Below the pieces are notes generated by a model. That model was given only the letters and a program-made list of their open reading frames with translations, did not search any database and was not told where the DNA came from. The position numbers and the translations under genes were made by a program. DNA of 64,000 nucleotides from Verrucomicrobiia bacterium (GTDB lineage Bacteria; Verrucomicrobiota; Verrucomicrobiia; Limisphaerales; Pedosphaeraceae), in assembly GCA_036268055.1 (NCBI GenBank), contig DATAUW010000011.1, positions 186,001 through 250,000 of the forward strand, written 5' to 3'. Each line of letters starts with the position of its first letter. Position 1 is the stretch's first letter. Shown here piece after piece: positions 7,113-13,355 of the stretch.

Positions 7113-7480
7113 AGTTAAACCGCGGAGGCGCGGAGGCGCGGAGGTCCTTGCGGACGGCCACTGGGAGAAAGACCAAAGTGAATTTGTTTTACAAAAGCAA
7201 TCGGCTTTTTTTGCAATTACTTCTTTGTTCCGAATCAGTGTTGCTTTGTAGAAATCATGATGACATCAAAATGGAGATGGGAAATGTGTTCGGCGAGACG
7301 CCAAACACTGCACGCGGGACGCGTGCGCTCCCCAAAACCCACTTCAGTTTCATCCTTGGGCGAATTGAGAACTCCATGTTTTCTACAAAGCAAATCAGTG
7401 TTTAGATCCGTGTTCCATCCGTGGCTTATATTCTCATTTCCGTCCTCCGCGCCTCCGCGTCTCCGCGGTTCAAACTTGGC
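7113..7480. repeat. Composite inverted repeat element, copy 1
   Basis: The left end reads CCAAGTTAAACCGCGGAGG, followed by GCGGAGGC units. The right end is its reverse complement, a CCTCCGCG run followed by CCGCGGTTCAAACTTGG. Inside, GCTTTGTAGAAA near 7243-7254 and TTTCTACAAAGC near 7380-7391 form a second, nested inverted repeat. Before the right arm is a segment (7393-7429) that also occurs, diverged, at 19755-19790 in the second copy. There is no credible gene inside. It is probably a non-autonomous repeat of the REP/BIME or miniature-element kind. Confidence 0.6.
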
Positions 7481-7577
7481 TTACGATTTCTTCGTTGCGT
7501 TTGCGGGGAAGGTGTAGCAGGTTGCTCGCGTATGTTTCGCAGTGTGTCACATGCGGGTCTTGCCGAAAGTTGAATCC

Positions 7578-9092
7578 ATGCTGCCGCCACCCCTCATTCA
7601 ATTCGGCATCGAAACGGAAATTGGAATCGCCCGCGATGGCAACGACGATCTCGATGTGGTGGCCGAATCCATTGCGCTGGTGCGCAGCATGGCCGAGCCG
7701 GGCGTGTTGATGCGGTGGGACTATGGCAGCGAAGATCCGCACGCCGACATGCGCGGGTTTCACGTCCAGGAATTGCGGCAGGACACGGACGAGGCAAATT
7801 ATTACGCCGAAGATTCGCAGCGCGAACTTTCCTACGTCGAAATCAAAAGCGATTTTGTCCTCGGCAACGGCGCGCGTTTCTATAACGACCATGCGCATCC
7901 CGAATACTGCACGCCGGAGTGCAGCACGCTCGATGAATTGCTCGCGCAGGACCGCGCCGGTGAGCGGATTCTCATGGCGTGCGCGCAACAGCTCACCGCG
8001 CGACTTGGCAGCGCCGTCCGGCTCTATAAAAACAACACGGACTTTCGCGGGCACAGCTACGGTTGCCACGAAAATTATTTGCTGCCGCGTTCGCTGCCTT
8101 GGGGACAGTTGGCGCAAGGCATCCAGGCGTTTTTAGTCACGCGGCAGATTTTTGCGGGCGCGGGGAAATTTGCGATTGAGGAGGAAGATCGTTTTGTTTC
8201 GCCGCAATTTCAGATCTCGCAGCGCAGTGATTTTTTCAGCGAATTGCAAAGCGTGGACACGATGCAGCGGCGGCCCATCGTCAACACGCGCGACGAACCG
8301 CACGCGAACCCGCGGCTCTATCGCCGGTTCCACGTCATCATCGGCGATGCCAATATGTCGCCGTTTTCGACGCGCTTGAAAGTCGGCACGACGGCGTTGG
8401 TGCTGGAAGCGCTGGCGCGCGATCCGCAGCGTTCGTGGCCGAAATTAGCGGAGCCGTTGGTGGCGTTGCGCGCCATTTCCCGCGATCCAAAATTTCGCTG
8501 GGAGGTGAAATCGTTAGGCGGGCGCAAAACGACGGCGCTCGAAATCCAGCGCGAATATCTGGCGGTGGTGAAATCGGTTTGCGATTTGTCCACGCCGTGC
8601 AAGCTTGCGCTCGTCGCGGAATGGGAAGCGGTGCTCAACGATTTGGCGCGCGACGTGATGCTTTGCCGCAATCGCCTCGATTGGGTGGCGAAAATGGCGC
8701 TGGTGCGGGAGTTTCAGGAATCGCAGAACATCGCCGAAGACGATCCGTGGTTGCAAAGTTTGGATTTGGAATATCACCGGCTGGATTTGGCGGAAGGTTT
8801 GTATTTTGGCCTCGAGCAAAGTGGCGCGATGCTGGGCGTGCCCGATGAGGTGGCGGTGCGGCGGGCGATGCGTGAACCACCGATGACAACGCGCGCGCTG
8901 GTTCGCGGCAAGTGCATCCAAAAATTTCCGGCGGCGGTGGCGTCGGCGCAGTGGGACCATATTACGTTGCAAGCGGACGGCGAGCGGGTAAAAATTTCTT
9001 TGCTGGATTTGTTCGCGCCCGAAGAAATTTTGCGTTATGGTAAAGCCATTGACGAGGCGCATTCGCCGGAGGATTTGCGAATGCTGAAATGA
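7578..9092 (+). CDS. dop: Dop: deamidase/depupylase of the UBact (Pup) system
   Basis: Dop belongs to the glutamine-synthetase-like carboxylate-amine ligase superfamily. With ATP as cofactor it deamidates the C-terminal Gln of Pup/UBact to Glu and removes the tag from substrates. The 504-residue product has the metal/ATP-binding start FGIETEIG, a region at residues ~45-85 that corresponds to the Dop-specific loop, and NGARFYNDHAHPEY with the candidate catalytic Asp104. Further on are TPECSTLDELL, CHENYLL and NTRDEPHA. The loop and the NDHAHPEY form separate it from PafA at 10907. I use the ATG at 7578, since in-frame starts at 7542 and 7551 only add a short tail. UBact ends in Gln, so this Dop is needed to activate it. 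Confidence 0.9.
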   Translation: MLPPPLIQFGIETEIGIARDGNDDLDVVAESIALVRSMAEPGVLMRWDYGSEDPHADMRGFHVQELRQDTDEANYYAEDSQRELSYVEIKSDFVLGNGARFYNDHAHPEYCTPECSTLDELLAQDRAGERILMACAQQLTARLGSAVRLYKNNTDFRGHSYGCHENYLLPRSLPWGQLAQGIQAFLVTRQIFAGAGKFAIEEEDRFVSPQFQISQRSDFFSELQSVDTMQRRPIVNTRDEPHANPRLYRRFHVIIGDANMSPFSTRLKVGTTALVLEALARDPQRSWPKLAEPLVALRAISRDPKFRWEVKSLGGRKTTALEIQREYLAVVKSVCDLSTPCKLALVAEWEAVLNDLARDVMLCRNRLDWVAKMALVREFQESQNIAEDDPWLQSLDLEYHRLDLAEGLYFGLEQSGAMLGVPDEVAVRRAMREPPMTTRALVRGKCIQKFPAAVASAQWDHITLQADGERVKISLLDLFAPEEILRYGKAIDEAHSPEDLRMLK

Positions 9093-9120
9093 ATGCGATA
9101 TTCATCTGAAAATTAAATTT

Positions 9121-9294
9121 ATGCCAGACCAAGCACAAAAAACACGGCCCGTAGGCCCGGGTGGCCCCAGCGGTGGTGGCGATGGCCCCAGCGCGCCGAA
9201 AGTGGATAAACCCAACACGGACGAGTTGCTCAAGCGGATGCGCAAAGTGGATCCTGACCAGGCCAAGCGCTATCGCCAACGCACGGGCCAATGA
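9121..9294 (+). CDS. ubact: UBact/Pup: 57-aa protein modifier
   Basis: This is the ubiquitin-like tag that PafA attaches to lysines of target proteins. The N-terminal half is disordered (Gly, Pro and Ser-rich, with SGGGDGPSAP). The C-terminal half is helical and basic (NTDELLKRMRKVDPDQAKRY) and ends in RQRTGQ. The last residue is Gln, so it must be deamidated by Dop before ligation. The KVDPDQAKRYRQRTGQ ending is that of UBact, the Pup relative of Gram-negative phyla, rather than the GGQ/GGE end of actinobacterial Pup. It is too short for many gene callers. Its TGA overlaps the ATG of prcB (ATGA, 9291-9294), which indicates translational coupling. Confidence 0.93.
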   Translation: MPDQAQKTRPVGPGGPSGGGDGPSAPKVDKPNTDELLKRMRKVDPDQAKRYRQRTGQ

Positions 9295-10073
9295 GCAGCG
9301 AGACGCCGATGGCCGGGGATTTTTTGTCCCTGCTCGCCGCCCAAAAGCTCGCGCCATGGCGCGGAGAAACCGCCGCCCATAATGGCGCGCCCGTGCAGAC
9401 GCAGGCGACGACGGTTTTCGCTTTTCATTTTGCCGAAGGAGTTTTGATGGCGGGCGACCGCCGCGCGACGGCTGGGAACATTATCGTCACCGACCGCGTG
9501 GATAAGGTCATCGAGATTGACGCGAATTCATTGCTGGCGATTGCGGGGGTGCCGGCGACGGCGTTCGAGATGGCGCGCGTGTTGCAGACTTCGTTTGAAT
9601 ATTATCGCCGCAGCCAATTACAATCGTTGAGCCTGCCGGCAAAGGTGCGCGCTCTCGCGCGTTTGTTGCGTGAAAATTTGCCGATGACCATGCAAGGCGT
9701 GGGGGTGGTCGTGCCGTTGTTCGCGAGCCTTGATCAATCGGTTTCGCCGGCCAAGCCGCAGATTTATTTTTACGATCCGCTGGGCGCGCAATTCCAGGCG
9801 GCGGACCATGTCGCCTCCGGTTCGGGCTCGGGAACGATCCGCAGCATCATGAGTTTTCAGGAGCAATACGGTTCACCGAAACCTTCGCAAATGAAATTGG
9901 CCGAGGCGGTGAAATTCGCGTTGCGGTTGCTGATGACGGCGTCGGAGTTCGATTCAGCCACCGGCGGCGTGAACCCGGCGACGCAAACCTACGCGACCAT
10001 TCGCGTTCTGCGCAGCACCGGCGTGGAAGCTGTGACTGACGCGCAGCAGGCAGAAATTTTAAAGCGTCCATGA
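9291..10073 (+). CDS. prcB: Proteasome beta subunit (catalytic)
   Basis: PrcB is the proteolytic subunit of the 20S core, an N-terminal-nucleophile hydrolase. A propeptide of about 39 residues precedes the TTVFAF motif. If cleavage frees Thr40 as Thr1, the triad falls exactly in register: Asp17 in MAGDRRATAG and Lys33 in TDRVDK. The GSGSGTIRSIM segment and later SATGG resemble the conserved substrate-pocket region. The 260-residue length is typical. Translation is coupled to UBact by the ATGA overlap, and prcA begins 39 bases later, so assembly partners are co-expressed. The enzyme should be active as judged by these residues. Confidence 0.92.
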   Translation: MSSETPMAGDFLSLLAAQKLAPWRGETAAHNGAPVQTQATTVFAFHFAEGVLMAGDRRATAGNIIVTDRVDKVIEIDANSLLAIAGVPATAFEMARVLQTSFEYYRRSQLQSLSLPAKVRALARLLRENLPMTMQGVGVVVPLFASLDQSVSPAKPQIYFYDPLGAQFQAADHVASGSGSGTIRSIMSFQEQYGSPKPSQMKLAEAVKFALRLLMTASEFDSATGGVNPATQTYATIRVLRSTGVEAVTDAQQAEILKRP

Positions 10074-10112
10074 ACATGGCAGCGAACGTAAAATGGAAAG
10101 CAGAAGCAGCGC

Positions 10113-10853
10113 ATGACTGAAGAACCCTATCGTTGGCTGGAAGCAGTGGGCAATCGCCGCGAGTATGTGCGCGAGCAGTTGAAAGGCGGCTCGCCCGCGC
10201 TGGCGGCCAGCCTGGCGGATGGAATTTTATTGCTGGGCGTGGGCGGCGGGCAATCGAAGGTGTTTGAATTATTCGATCGCCATGCGCTCGCGGGGCTCGG
10301 GCATCCGGCGGACATCGAAAAAATCCGGCAGGCGGCGATTGACGCGGCACACACGGAGGCCTTTACGCGCGCGCCTGAAGACGTGAGCTTGCGGCGGCTC
10401 GTGAGTTTTGGTTTGAGCCCGCAGTTAAAGACGAATTTCGAACAGATTTTTACCGCGCCATTTTTGGTCGAACTGTTGCTCGCGGAAGTGGGTTCGGAAC
10501 CGGCGAAGGATTTGTTGTTGCGCCTGCATTTTGACGGGGCGTTTCAATTTCAAAACGGTGGAGTCATCGTCGCAGCCAGCCAAGCCGAGCCGGAAGCGGA
10601 AGCGAAGGCGTGGCTCGCGAAAATGATCGGCGAAAAAACCGATCGCAAGGCGGCGGCGGATTTGTTGCTGCAAGCGTGGTGGTGCCTCAAGGAAAATAAA
10701 AATTTTGGCGACGCCATCCCGAAGGAAGCCGAGCGGCAAGCCGGCTGGCGCGACGCGACGCGCGAGCGCGTGGTGGAAATTGGCTGGCTTGCGCGGCACA
10801 CATCGCAGCGCGCGCAGTATGAAAGTTTGACGCTGGCACAGTTGGGATTGTAA
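10113..10853 (+). CDS. prcA: Proteasome alpha subunit
   Basis: PrcA forms the outer rings of the 20S core and the gate that receives unfolded tagged substrate from a ring ATPase. The 246-residue product lacks an N-terminal nucleophile and has the alpha-type start EEPYRWLEAVGNRREYVREQL, with a helix that forms the pore collar. Internal segments DGILLLGVGGGQSKVFELFDRHALAGLGHPADIEKIR match the proteasome fold (strand, strand, helix). Similarity is weaker than for PrcB, and the call rests partly on its place between prcB and pafA. No ATPase gene (Mpa/ARC) is present in the window. Confidence 0.85.
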   Translation: MTEEPYRWLEAVGNRREYVREQLKGGSPALAASLADGILLLGVGGGQSKVFELFDRHALAGLGHPADIEKIRQAAIDAAHTEAFTRAPEDVSLRRLVSFGLSPQLKTNFEQIFTAPFLVELLLAEVGSEPAKDLLLRLHFDGAFQFQNGGVIVAASQAEPEAEAKAWLAKMIGEKTDRKAAADLLLQAWWCLKENKNFGDAIPKEAERQAGWRDATRERVVEIGWLARHTSQRAQYESLTLAQLGL

Positions 10854-10906
10854 GCGCGACAACGCGCGTTCGGTTCCGGCGGTGCGGTGGGAAGTGAAGA
10901 GTTTTT

Positions 10907-12331
10907 ATGAATCGCATTGTTGGATTGGAAACCGAATACGGCTGCCTGACGAATACGCCGGCGGGTTCGTTCATCGCGGTCGAACGCGTGCGCGATTGGA
11001 TTTTTGGACGGGAGGAATACGGGCTCATTGATGTGCATCATCGCGATTGGGACGAGCCGCCCGGCAATGGCGGATTTCTCTTCAATGGCGGGCGCGTCTA
11101 TATTGACATGGGCCATCTCGAATACTGCACGCCCGAATGCGTTTCGCTGCTCGACATTTTAAAATACGATCGCGCCGGTGACGCGCTGGCCATGCGCGCG
11201 GTGAAGGCGCTCGGTCTCGCGGGCGAGGTCAGTTTCATCCGCAATAATATTGATCACTACACCGGCGCGACATTTGGCTGCCACGAAAATTATCTCGTGC
11301 GCCGGTCCGCGCCGCTCACCGAAACCAACGTCCTGTCGCTGTTGACGTTTTTAACCTTGCGGCTGCTCTTCACCGGCGCGGGCCGTGTCGGGACCACGCT
11401 CGCGGCCGAGTGGCGCGGCGAAGTCAGCCGTCCGGGAACCGATGGCGGTTTCCAGATGAGCCAGCGCGCGGATTACATCAACAACGACCTTTACGAATGG
11501 GTGCAGTTCAATCGCTCGATCATCAACACGCGCGACGAACCCCTGGGTGACCCGCGCAAATATCGCCGCCTGCATTTGCTTCATGGCGACACTAATGTTT
11601 TGCCCGCGACGCTGCTGCTGAAAGTCGGCACGACCTCGCTGATGCTCGATCTGCTGGAGATCAATCATCTGCCGAAGCTGGTTTTGGCCGACGCGGTGAA
11701 AACTTTTCGCGCGTTGTCGCACCAGACCGAAGGCCCGTGGGAAGTGCGGCTGGCGGACGGGCGCAGCGTGGATGCGGTGGACCTGCTCGAGAAATTTTTC
11801 AGCGCGGCATTTTCGGAATTTCATGGCCGCGATACTGAGACGGACATCCTGCTCGACGTGTGGGGTTCGACGTTGAAGGCGCTGAAGACCGAGCCGCAGG
11901 CGTTGATCGGCAAGGTGGATTGGATCACGAAACTGTGGCTGCTGCGCAAATTCATGGAACAGGAAAAGCTTGAGTGGGACGACCCGTGGCTCAAGGCGCA
12001 GGACCTGGAATTCCATCATATTGACCCGGCGCGAAGCCTGGGCCTGGCGATGTGCCAGCCGCCGCCCGCGTGGGAACTCTCCGCCAAAACCATCGAGACC
12101 TCCGTAATGGAACCGCCCGCGAACACCCGCGCGCTGGCCCGCTCGCGCGTGATGCAACTGCTCAAGGAATTCGCGCCGCCGTATTCGATTGATTGGGAAA
12201 TCGTCGGCGTGGAAGGAATCAATTCGCTAAATCTGCTGAACCCGTTTGATCCATCGCCACCGGAATTAAAATCATGGCAGGCAGAATTTCACGCCGCGAT
12301 GAAAGCGGGCGGCGCGGGGAAGAAGAAGTAA
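10907..12331 (+). CDS. pafA: PafA: UBact/Pup protein ligase
   Basis: PafA joins the C-terminal Glu of deamidated UBact to substrate lysines, using ATP via a gamma-glutamyl phosphate. The 474-residue product begins MNRIVGLETEYGC, with metal-binding glutamates. It has NGGRVYIDMGHLEYCTPEC with the likely catalytic base Asp67, then CHENYLVRR, NTRDEPLGDPRKYRRLH and KVGTTSLMLDL. It lacks the long loop seen in Dop, which is how the two paralogues are told apart. It is the last gene of the locus, 53 bases after prcA. Upstream GGAAGTGAAGAG may act as a ribosome site. Confidence 0.92.
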   Translation: MNRIVGLETEYGCLTNTPAGSFIAVERVRDWIFGREEYGLIDVHHRDWDEPPGNGGFLFNGGRVYIDMGHLEYCTPECVSLLDILKYDRAGDALAMRAVKALGLAGEVSFIRNNIDHYTGATFGCHENYLVRRSAPLTETNVLSLLTFLTLRLLFTGAGRVGTTLAAEWRGEVSRPGTDGGFQMSQRADYINNDLYEWVQFNRSIINTRDEPLGDPRKYRRLHLLHGDTNVLPATLLLKVGTTSLMLDLLEINHLPKLVLADAVKTFRALSHQTEGPWEVRLADGRSVDAVDLLEKFFSAAFSEFHGRDTETDILLDVWGSTLKALKTEPQALIGKVDWITKLWLLRKFMEQEKLEWDDPWLKAQDLEFHHIDPARSLGLAMCQPPPAWELSAKTIETSVMEPPANTRALARSRVMQLLKEFAPPYSIDWEIVGVEGINSLNLLNPFDPSPPELKSWQAEFHAAMKAGGAGKKK

Positions 12332-12509: not shown

Positions 12510-13355
12510 ATGAATAAAAACATTATCAAGAAGGCCCTGCTGCCAACGGTAGCTTGCGGCACATTGCTCGCCACGGCGTCCACCTACGCCCAAACCACCA
12601 TCGCCGATTGGACCTTTGAAAATATCACGGCGGGGACTACGATGGTGCTCAATCCGGCTGCGGCGGTCAATAACTCGGCGGGCACGCCGGCGGCGGTTTC
12701 GCTCGGCATGGATAATACCTACGGCACGCCGACTTCCAGCATGGCTATTCCTGACGTGATCGCCTCGACCGGCAGTTCGACCGGCGCCGGAAATGAATGG
12801 CGCGTGCGCGGCGGCCCAGTCGCTACCGGCAAGGCCAACGGCTGGTCCTCGCTGGCGCCCATCGGCACGCAAGGCGCAGAATTCGATGTCAGCACCGTCG
12901 GTTTCAGCAATATCCAATTGACGTTCGATCTCGAAACCACTTCCGCCGCCGAAGCGAACCTCACGGTGCTTTACACGACGGATGGCATGACCTGGAACAA
13001 TGCCACCATCATTTCCCTGGACAGCGGCGCGACGATCAAGAACAACACCTCAAGCGCGAACACCGTCATGGGAAGTTATATTACCATGAACGCGAATGGG
13101 TTTGTGGACGGCATCACGGTGGACTTCGGTGGAATCACCGCGGCGAATAATGACGCGAGTTTCGGAGTGCGCATCGTGAATGCCTCGACCGGCGCGGATG
13201 ATTTGAACGGTTCCGGCACCGCCTATAACAATTCTTCCGGCAACTGGCGTTATGACAACGTGGCTTTCTCCACGCCGGAACCGACGATACTTGCTTTGAC
13301 GGGTTTGGGTTTGGCCGGCCTCTTCGGCTTCCGCCGCAAGTTCGCGCAGAAGTAA
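12510..13355 (+). CDS. PEP-CTERM sorting-domain exported protein
   Basis: A signal peptide (MNKNIIKKALLPTVACGTLL..., cut near AQT) is followed by a beta-rich, Ser/Thr/Asn/Gly-rich passenger of about 225 residues without an enzyme motif. The C-terminus STPEPTILALTGLGLAGLFGFRRKF is a textbook PEP-CTERM tripartite signal: PEP-like motif, hydrophobic helix, basic end. Such proteins are exported, cut by exosortase and released to the surface or exopolysaccharide matrix. The exosortase is not in this window. A GGAAGAA ribosome site stands before the ATG. The passenger function is unknown. Confidence 0.85.
   Translation: MNKNIIKKALLPTVACGTLLATASTYAQTTIADWTFENITAGTTMVLNPAAAVNNSAGTPAAVSLGMDNTYGTPTSSMAIPDVIASTGSSTGAGNEWRVRGGPVATGKANGWSSLAPIGTQGAEFDVSTVGFSNIQLTFDLETTSAAEANLTVLYTTDGMTWNNATIISLDSGATIKNNTSSANTVMGSYITMNANGFVDGITVDFGGITAANNDASFGVRIVNASTGADDLNGSGTAYNNSSGNWRYDNVAFSTPEPTILALTGLGLAGLFGFRRKFAQK

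Follow-up and report, generated by a model that had tools for sequence, protein, structure and literature searches.

A probable UBact conjugation and 20S proteasome operon, with its ATPase gene displaced, in a verrucomicrobial bacterium

The window considered here, a stretch of 64,000 nucleotides, contains between positions 7578 and 12331 five open reading frames that very probably make up an operon for UBact conjugation and the 20S proteasome, its host being a verrucomicrobial (Pedosphaera-like) bacterium. All lie on the forward strand, where dop comes first and is followed by ubact, prcB, prcA and pafA (Table 1). The initial annotation had described them so, in one direction and with short gaps, and its coordinates proved accurate; the identities that it proposed for the five products are upheld by profile searches, a tree, a modelled fold and the comparison of neighbourhoods. 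The E-values of the families at the locus span 1e-147 to 1e-15, which, together with the recurrence of the gene order in dozens of independent contigs, rules out a chance assemblage. The gene set is real and apparently intact. It had also been called complete, and this holds for the five genes, but not for the ARC ATPase, which is encoded outside the locus, at G000:C17:70114-71562.

Table 1. Genes of the UBact-proteasome locus and the evidence for their assignment
Gene and product	Position	Strand	Basis
dop, UBact deamidase/deconjugase, 504 aa	7578..9092	+	PF03136, TIGR03688, Dop 4b0r alignment
ubact, 57-aa modifier, C-terminus RTGQ	9121..9294	+	PF20513, NF033388
prcB, proteasome beta subunit	9291..10073	+	TIGR03690; invariant residues
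prcA, divergent proteasome alpha subunit, 246 aa	10113..10853	+	TIGR03691; model fold
pafA, UBact ligase, 474 aa	10907..12331	+	PF03136; no Dop-loop; clade

From dop to pafA the intergenic distances are 28, -4, 39 and 53 bases, the negative value being an ATGA overlap of the ubact stop with the prcB start at 9291-9294. A last codon and stop permitting this overlap, CAATGA or GAATGA, are found in 57 of 80 relatives, which suggests that the translation of ubact and prcB may be coupled. The start of dop is placed at the ATG at 7578, and an in-frame GTG is also present at 7542. Scans for promoters and terminators returned counts no higher than chance.

The modifier and its enzymes

The 57-residue frame, for which a search against UBact and Pup profiles had been proposed, matches two UBact models well above their cut-offs: Pfam PF20513 (E 3.5e-24, 84.7 bits; cut-off 27.8) and NCBIfam NF033388 (E 1.9e-24, 85.6 bits; cut-off 35). 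An actinobacterial Pup in place of UBact is rejected, as the Pup model PF05639 is silent across the organism's own genome and detects its target in the control genome of Corynebacterium glutamicum. The search of the modifier against solved structures gave no match, as expected of a protein this short. The initial annotation had named the absence of this frame from relatives as grounds for refutation; those grounds fall away, as the frame is present in 25 of 58 order-level genomes and in at least 80 named loci. The RTGQ end is shared by 62 of the 80 named relatives and the other 18 end in RTGE, so that most of these modifiers, not all, would have to be deamidated first; it is the Gln end of the tag that makes Dop necessary.

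Dop and PafA both belong to family PF03136 (E 1.9e-147 and 2.4e-110, respectively), and they are distinguished by the Dop-loop and by the clade into which they fall (PMC7947786). Dop scores 430.7 bits against the Dop model TIGR03688, below its cut-off of 492.3, and 334.6 against the other model; it aligns to the Dop structure 4b0r (E 1.1e-103) with the Dop-loop region covered. PafA, with nearly equal scores for TIGR03686 and TIGR03688, both below their actinobacterial cut-offs, has no Dop-loop, and beyond the N-terminal motif its alignment to Dop begins only at Dop residue 84. In a tree of 49 sequences the two verrucomicrobial groups, Dop and PafA, form separate clades with support of 100/100, and the Dop group joins the actinobacterial Dop at a fork of modest support (87/59). 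The separate clades lead us to reject an origin of pafA by recent duplication of dop within the phylum; the lone actinobacterial PafA reference in the tree is a long branch. The G-x-E-x-E motif is conserved together with an aspartate in both enzymes, D104 among the aligned relatives of Dop and D67, invariant like the motif, in PafA (n=46). This aspartate is an active-site residue in the family. An additional pair of Pup_ligase-family matches lies off the UBact operon at G046:C193:13882-17036, one of them in an open frame of 924 residues.

The core particle and the displaced ATPase gene

Dop, PafA, PrcB, PrcA and ARC all score below the NCBIfam equivalog cut-offs. PrcB reaches 152.6 bits against TIGR03690 (E 1.3e-44, under the cut-off); its propeptide of 39 residues is followed by Thr1, and Thr1, Asp17, Arg19 and Lys33 are invariant in the 77 sequences aligned. 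PrcA is the more divergent subunit, with 57.7 bits against TIGR03691 (E 1.1e-15, under the cut-off) and a borderline match in Pfam (E 0.11), and its structure was modelled because of this marginal detection. The model (pLDDT 92.1) finds its best structural match in the PrcA of M. tuberculosis, with TM 0.74/0.83 at 22% identity. The docking lysine of PrcA, K49, is invariant in the relatives aligned, and its N-terminus (EEPYRWLEA) is strongly conserved; the equivalent stretch is the gate in mycobacterial PrcA. In four loci (L050, L052, L053 and L066) UBact and PrcB are encoded, but the flank examined beyond PrcB holds no recognisable PrcA; their prcA and pafA may be located elsewhere.

No ARC/Mpa-type ATPase, a component on which the pathway depends, is encoded in the window. 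The ARC of this genome, a protein of 566 aa whose gene (also L001:1441-3141) lies on another contig, scores 432 bits against TIGR03689 (E 3.3e-129; cut-off 504.75), carries the OB domains of proteasomal ATPases and Walker motifs, and matches Mpa with an E-value of 8e-96. Its location on a separate contig means that arc is not co-transcribed with the rest of the set. A second ATPase match in the same genome, on contig C13 (140 bits, 671-aa frame), was set aside as probably a generic AAA protein. Within the order, arc adjoins dop in 20 of the 26 arc-bearing genomes; no dop was found beside arc in the present genome and in five others. The flanks of the displaced arc in this genome (G000) and in G001, G002 and G043 do not match one another, by which a common new site is rejected for the four cases compared and the separations look independent. 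A search for the ATPase beyond the operon is therefore advisable before such loci are judged complete or incomplete. Among the neighbours of the displaced gene (G000:C17:62000-78000, L128) are genes for a multihaem cytochrome, a large iron-sulfur protein and a quinol subunit, which, judged by eye, resemble the operon of an alternative complex III.

How might this ATPase engage the core particle? The ARC encoded here ends in HSGVV, and of the 41 verrucomicrobial ARCs with a stop, 40 terminate in Val or Ile; the exception (L127) reads on beyond an AQIV that otherwise resembles these ends. A GQYL or HbYX end is found in none of these 41 C-termini, all of them verrucomicrobial. Mycobacterial Mpa opens the proteasome only with its GQYL tail (PMC12288473), so that an ARC with neither motif may not engage the 20S particle in the established way. 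The conservation of the Val/Ile end suggests a tail that is constrained, not lost. We tentatively propose that in verrucomicrobial UBact systems the hydrophobic tail ending in Val or Ile might dock on the 20S particle in place of GQYL/HbYX, via the conserved lysine and N-terminal EEPYRWLEA stretch of PrcA, a possibility that we rate somewhat below even. The Val/Ile tail may be new, as a limited literature check found no earlier report of it, and its conservation in place of a tyrosine motif poses a small testable question on the opening of bacterial proteasomes.

Function of the pathway

The homologies suggest the following course of events. Dop would convert Gln57, the last residue of UBact, to Glu by deamidation, and PafA, as an ATP-dependent ligase, would link the side-chain carboxylate of Glu57 to lysines of the target. 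ARC would then bind the tag and thread the target into the PrcA/PrcB 20S proteasome, inside which Thr1 of PrcB would cleave it; Dop might also take the tag off. Every biochemical step of this pathway is thus read from homology, and so is the proposal of the initial annotation that this lineage would use such regulated protein degradation in vivo.

Tagging could instead be mainly non-degradative, with ARC disassembling or regulating the tagged complexes as in Corynebacterium glutamicum and its coupling to the 20S particle weak or absent. Such a role would be in line with the departure of arc from the operon and with an ARC devoid of the GQYL/HbYX docking tail, and C. glutamicum, an organism lacking a 20S core, does combine non-degradative pupylation with ARC (PMC12288473). 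It is nevertheless very unlikely here: PrcA and PrcB are retained in the operon with their active sites intact, PrcA occurs in every relative with PafA/Dop, its docking lysine does not vary, and the ARC tail appears constrained. A decaying or inactive remnant, a reading to which the separation of the ATPase gene might lend some colour, is hardly credible: every frame is open, the catalytic residues are all in place, and PrcA, Dop and PafA share 77-80% identity with their closest relatives. A degradative UBact-proteasome pathway is the reading that we prefer.

Distribution and relation to known systems

PafA/Dop and PrcA are found in the same 29 of the 58 order-level genomes; of these 29, 25 also encode UBact and 26 encode ARC. 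The gaps between components are partly assembly breaks, as in G044 (L105), where arc is truncated by the contig end. A scan of public genomes yielded 114 UBact-encoding stretches, of which 80 were kept. Nearly all of these are labelled Verrucomicrobiota, and the few labelled Klebsiella, Proteobacteria or Bacteroidetes are, in our reading, mislabelled metagenome bins; the nearest named relatives of the present locus are likewise Verrucomicrobiota, which fits the Gram-negative host that had been supposed. The full order ARC-Dop-UBact-PrcB-PrcA-PafA is preserved in 26 named loci, and only one of the 80 shows neither the whole nor a portion of it; some UBact loci stand without neighbours despite long flanks. 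Across the phylum the distribution is patchy, with 8 of 194 sampled genomes over the cut-off, so that the description of the set as rare is justified at that level, but not within this order, where 25 of 58 genomes encode UBact.

In 2008 Iyer, Burroughs and Aravind described for verrucomicrobia (Methylacidiphilum) proteins resembling Pup that end in G[EQ], together with paralogues of PafA and neighbouring proteasome genes (PMC2588565). The name UBact, for the system of Gram-negative bacteria, followed in 2017 with Lehmann et al. (10.1016/j.bbrc.2017.01.037, as cited in PMC12751074). In view of both, the locus is not a new kind of system; the system is already known in the phylum, and the locus is another example, contributing a well-supported UBact-proteasome set for a verrucomicrobial lineage.

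With the UBact system of Gram-negative bacteria the locus shares a modifier well over the curated cut-offs of its family and the matching partner genes, and it differs in nothing defining; arc, in this genome, stands apart from the operon, its place in the cluster being a common trait of such systems and not a defining one. The Methylacidiphilum neighbourhoods (PMC2588565) belong to the same phylum and likewise combine a modifier with a G[EQ] C-terminus, PafA-family enzymes and proteasome genes, but they represent another lineage, and the ATPase is encoded elsewhere in ours. The actinobacterial Pup-proteasome system has homologous Dop, PafA, PrcA, PrcB and ARC and a modifier with a C-terminal Gly-Gln, whereas the modifier here is undetected by PF05639, ARC ends in Val/Ile and not in GQYL, and PrcA shows about 22% identity when the structures are aligned. 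A search for the Bpa activator gave no match, the control genomes being equally silent.

Other features of the region

Directly 3' of pafA, at 12510-13355, lies a gene for a PEP-CTERM protein, which is outside the system. A short repeat, CTCCGCGTCTCCGCGGT, is present in 24 exact copies genome-wide; the reversed control gives 0. Its copies in the window are at 1295-1311, 7119-7135 and 7453-7469, and two copies stand in opposite orientation upstream of dop.
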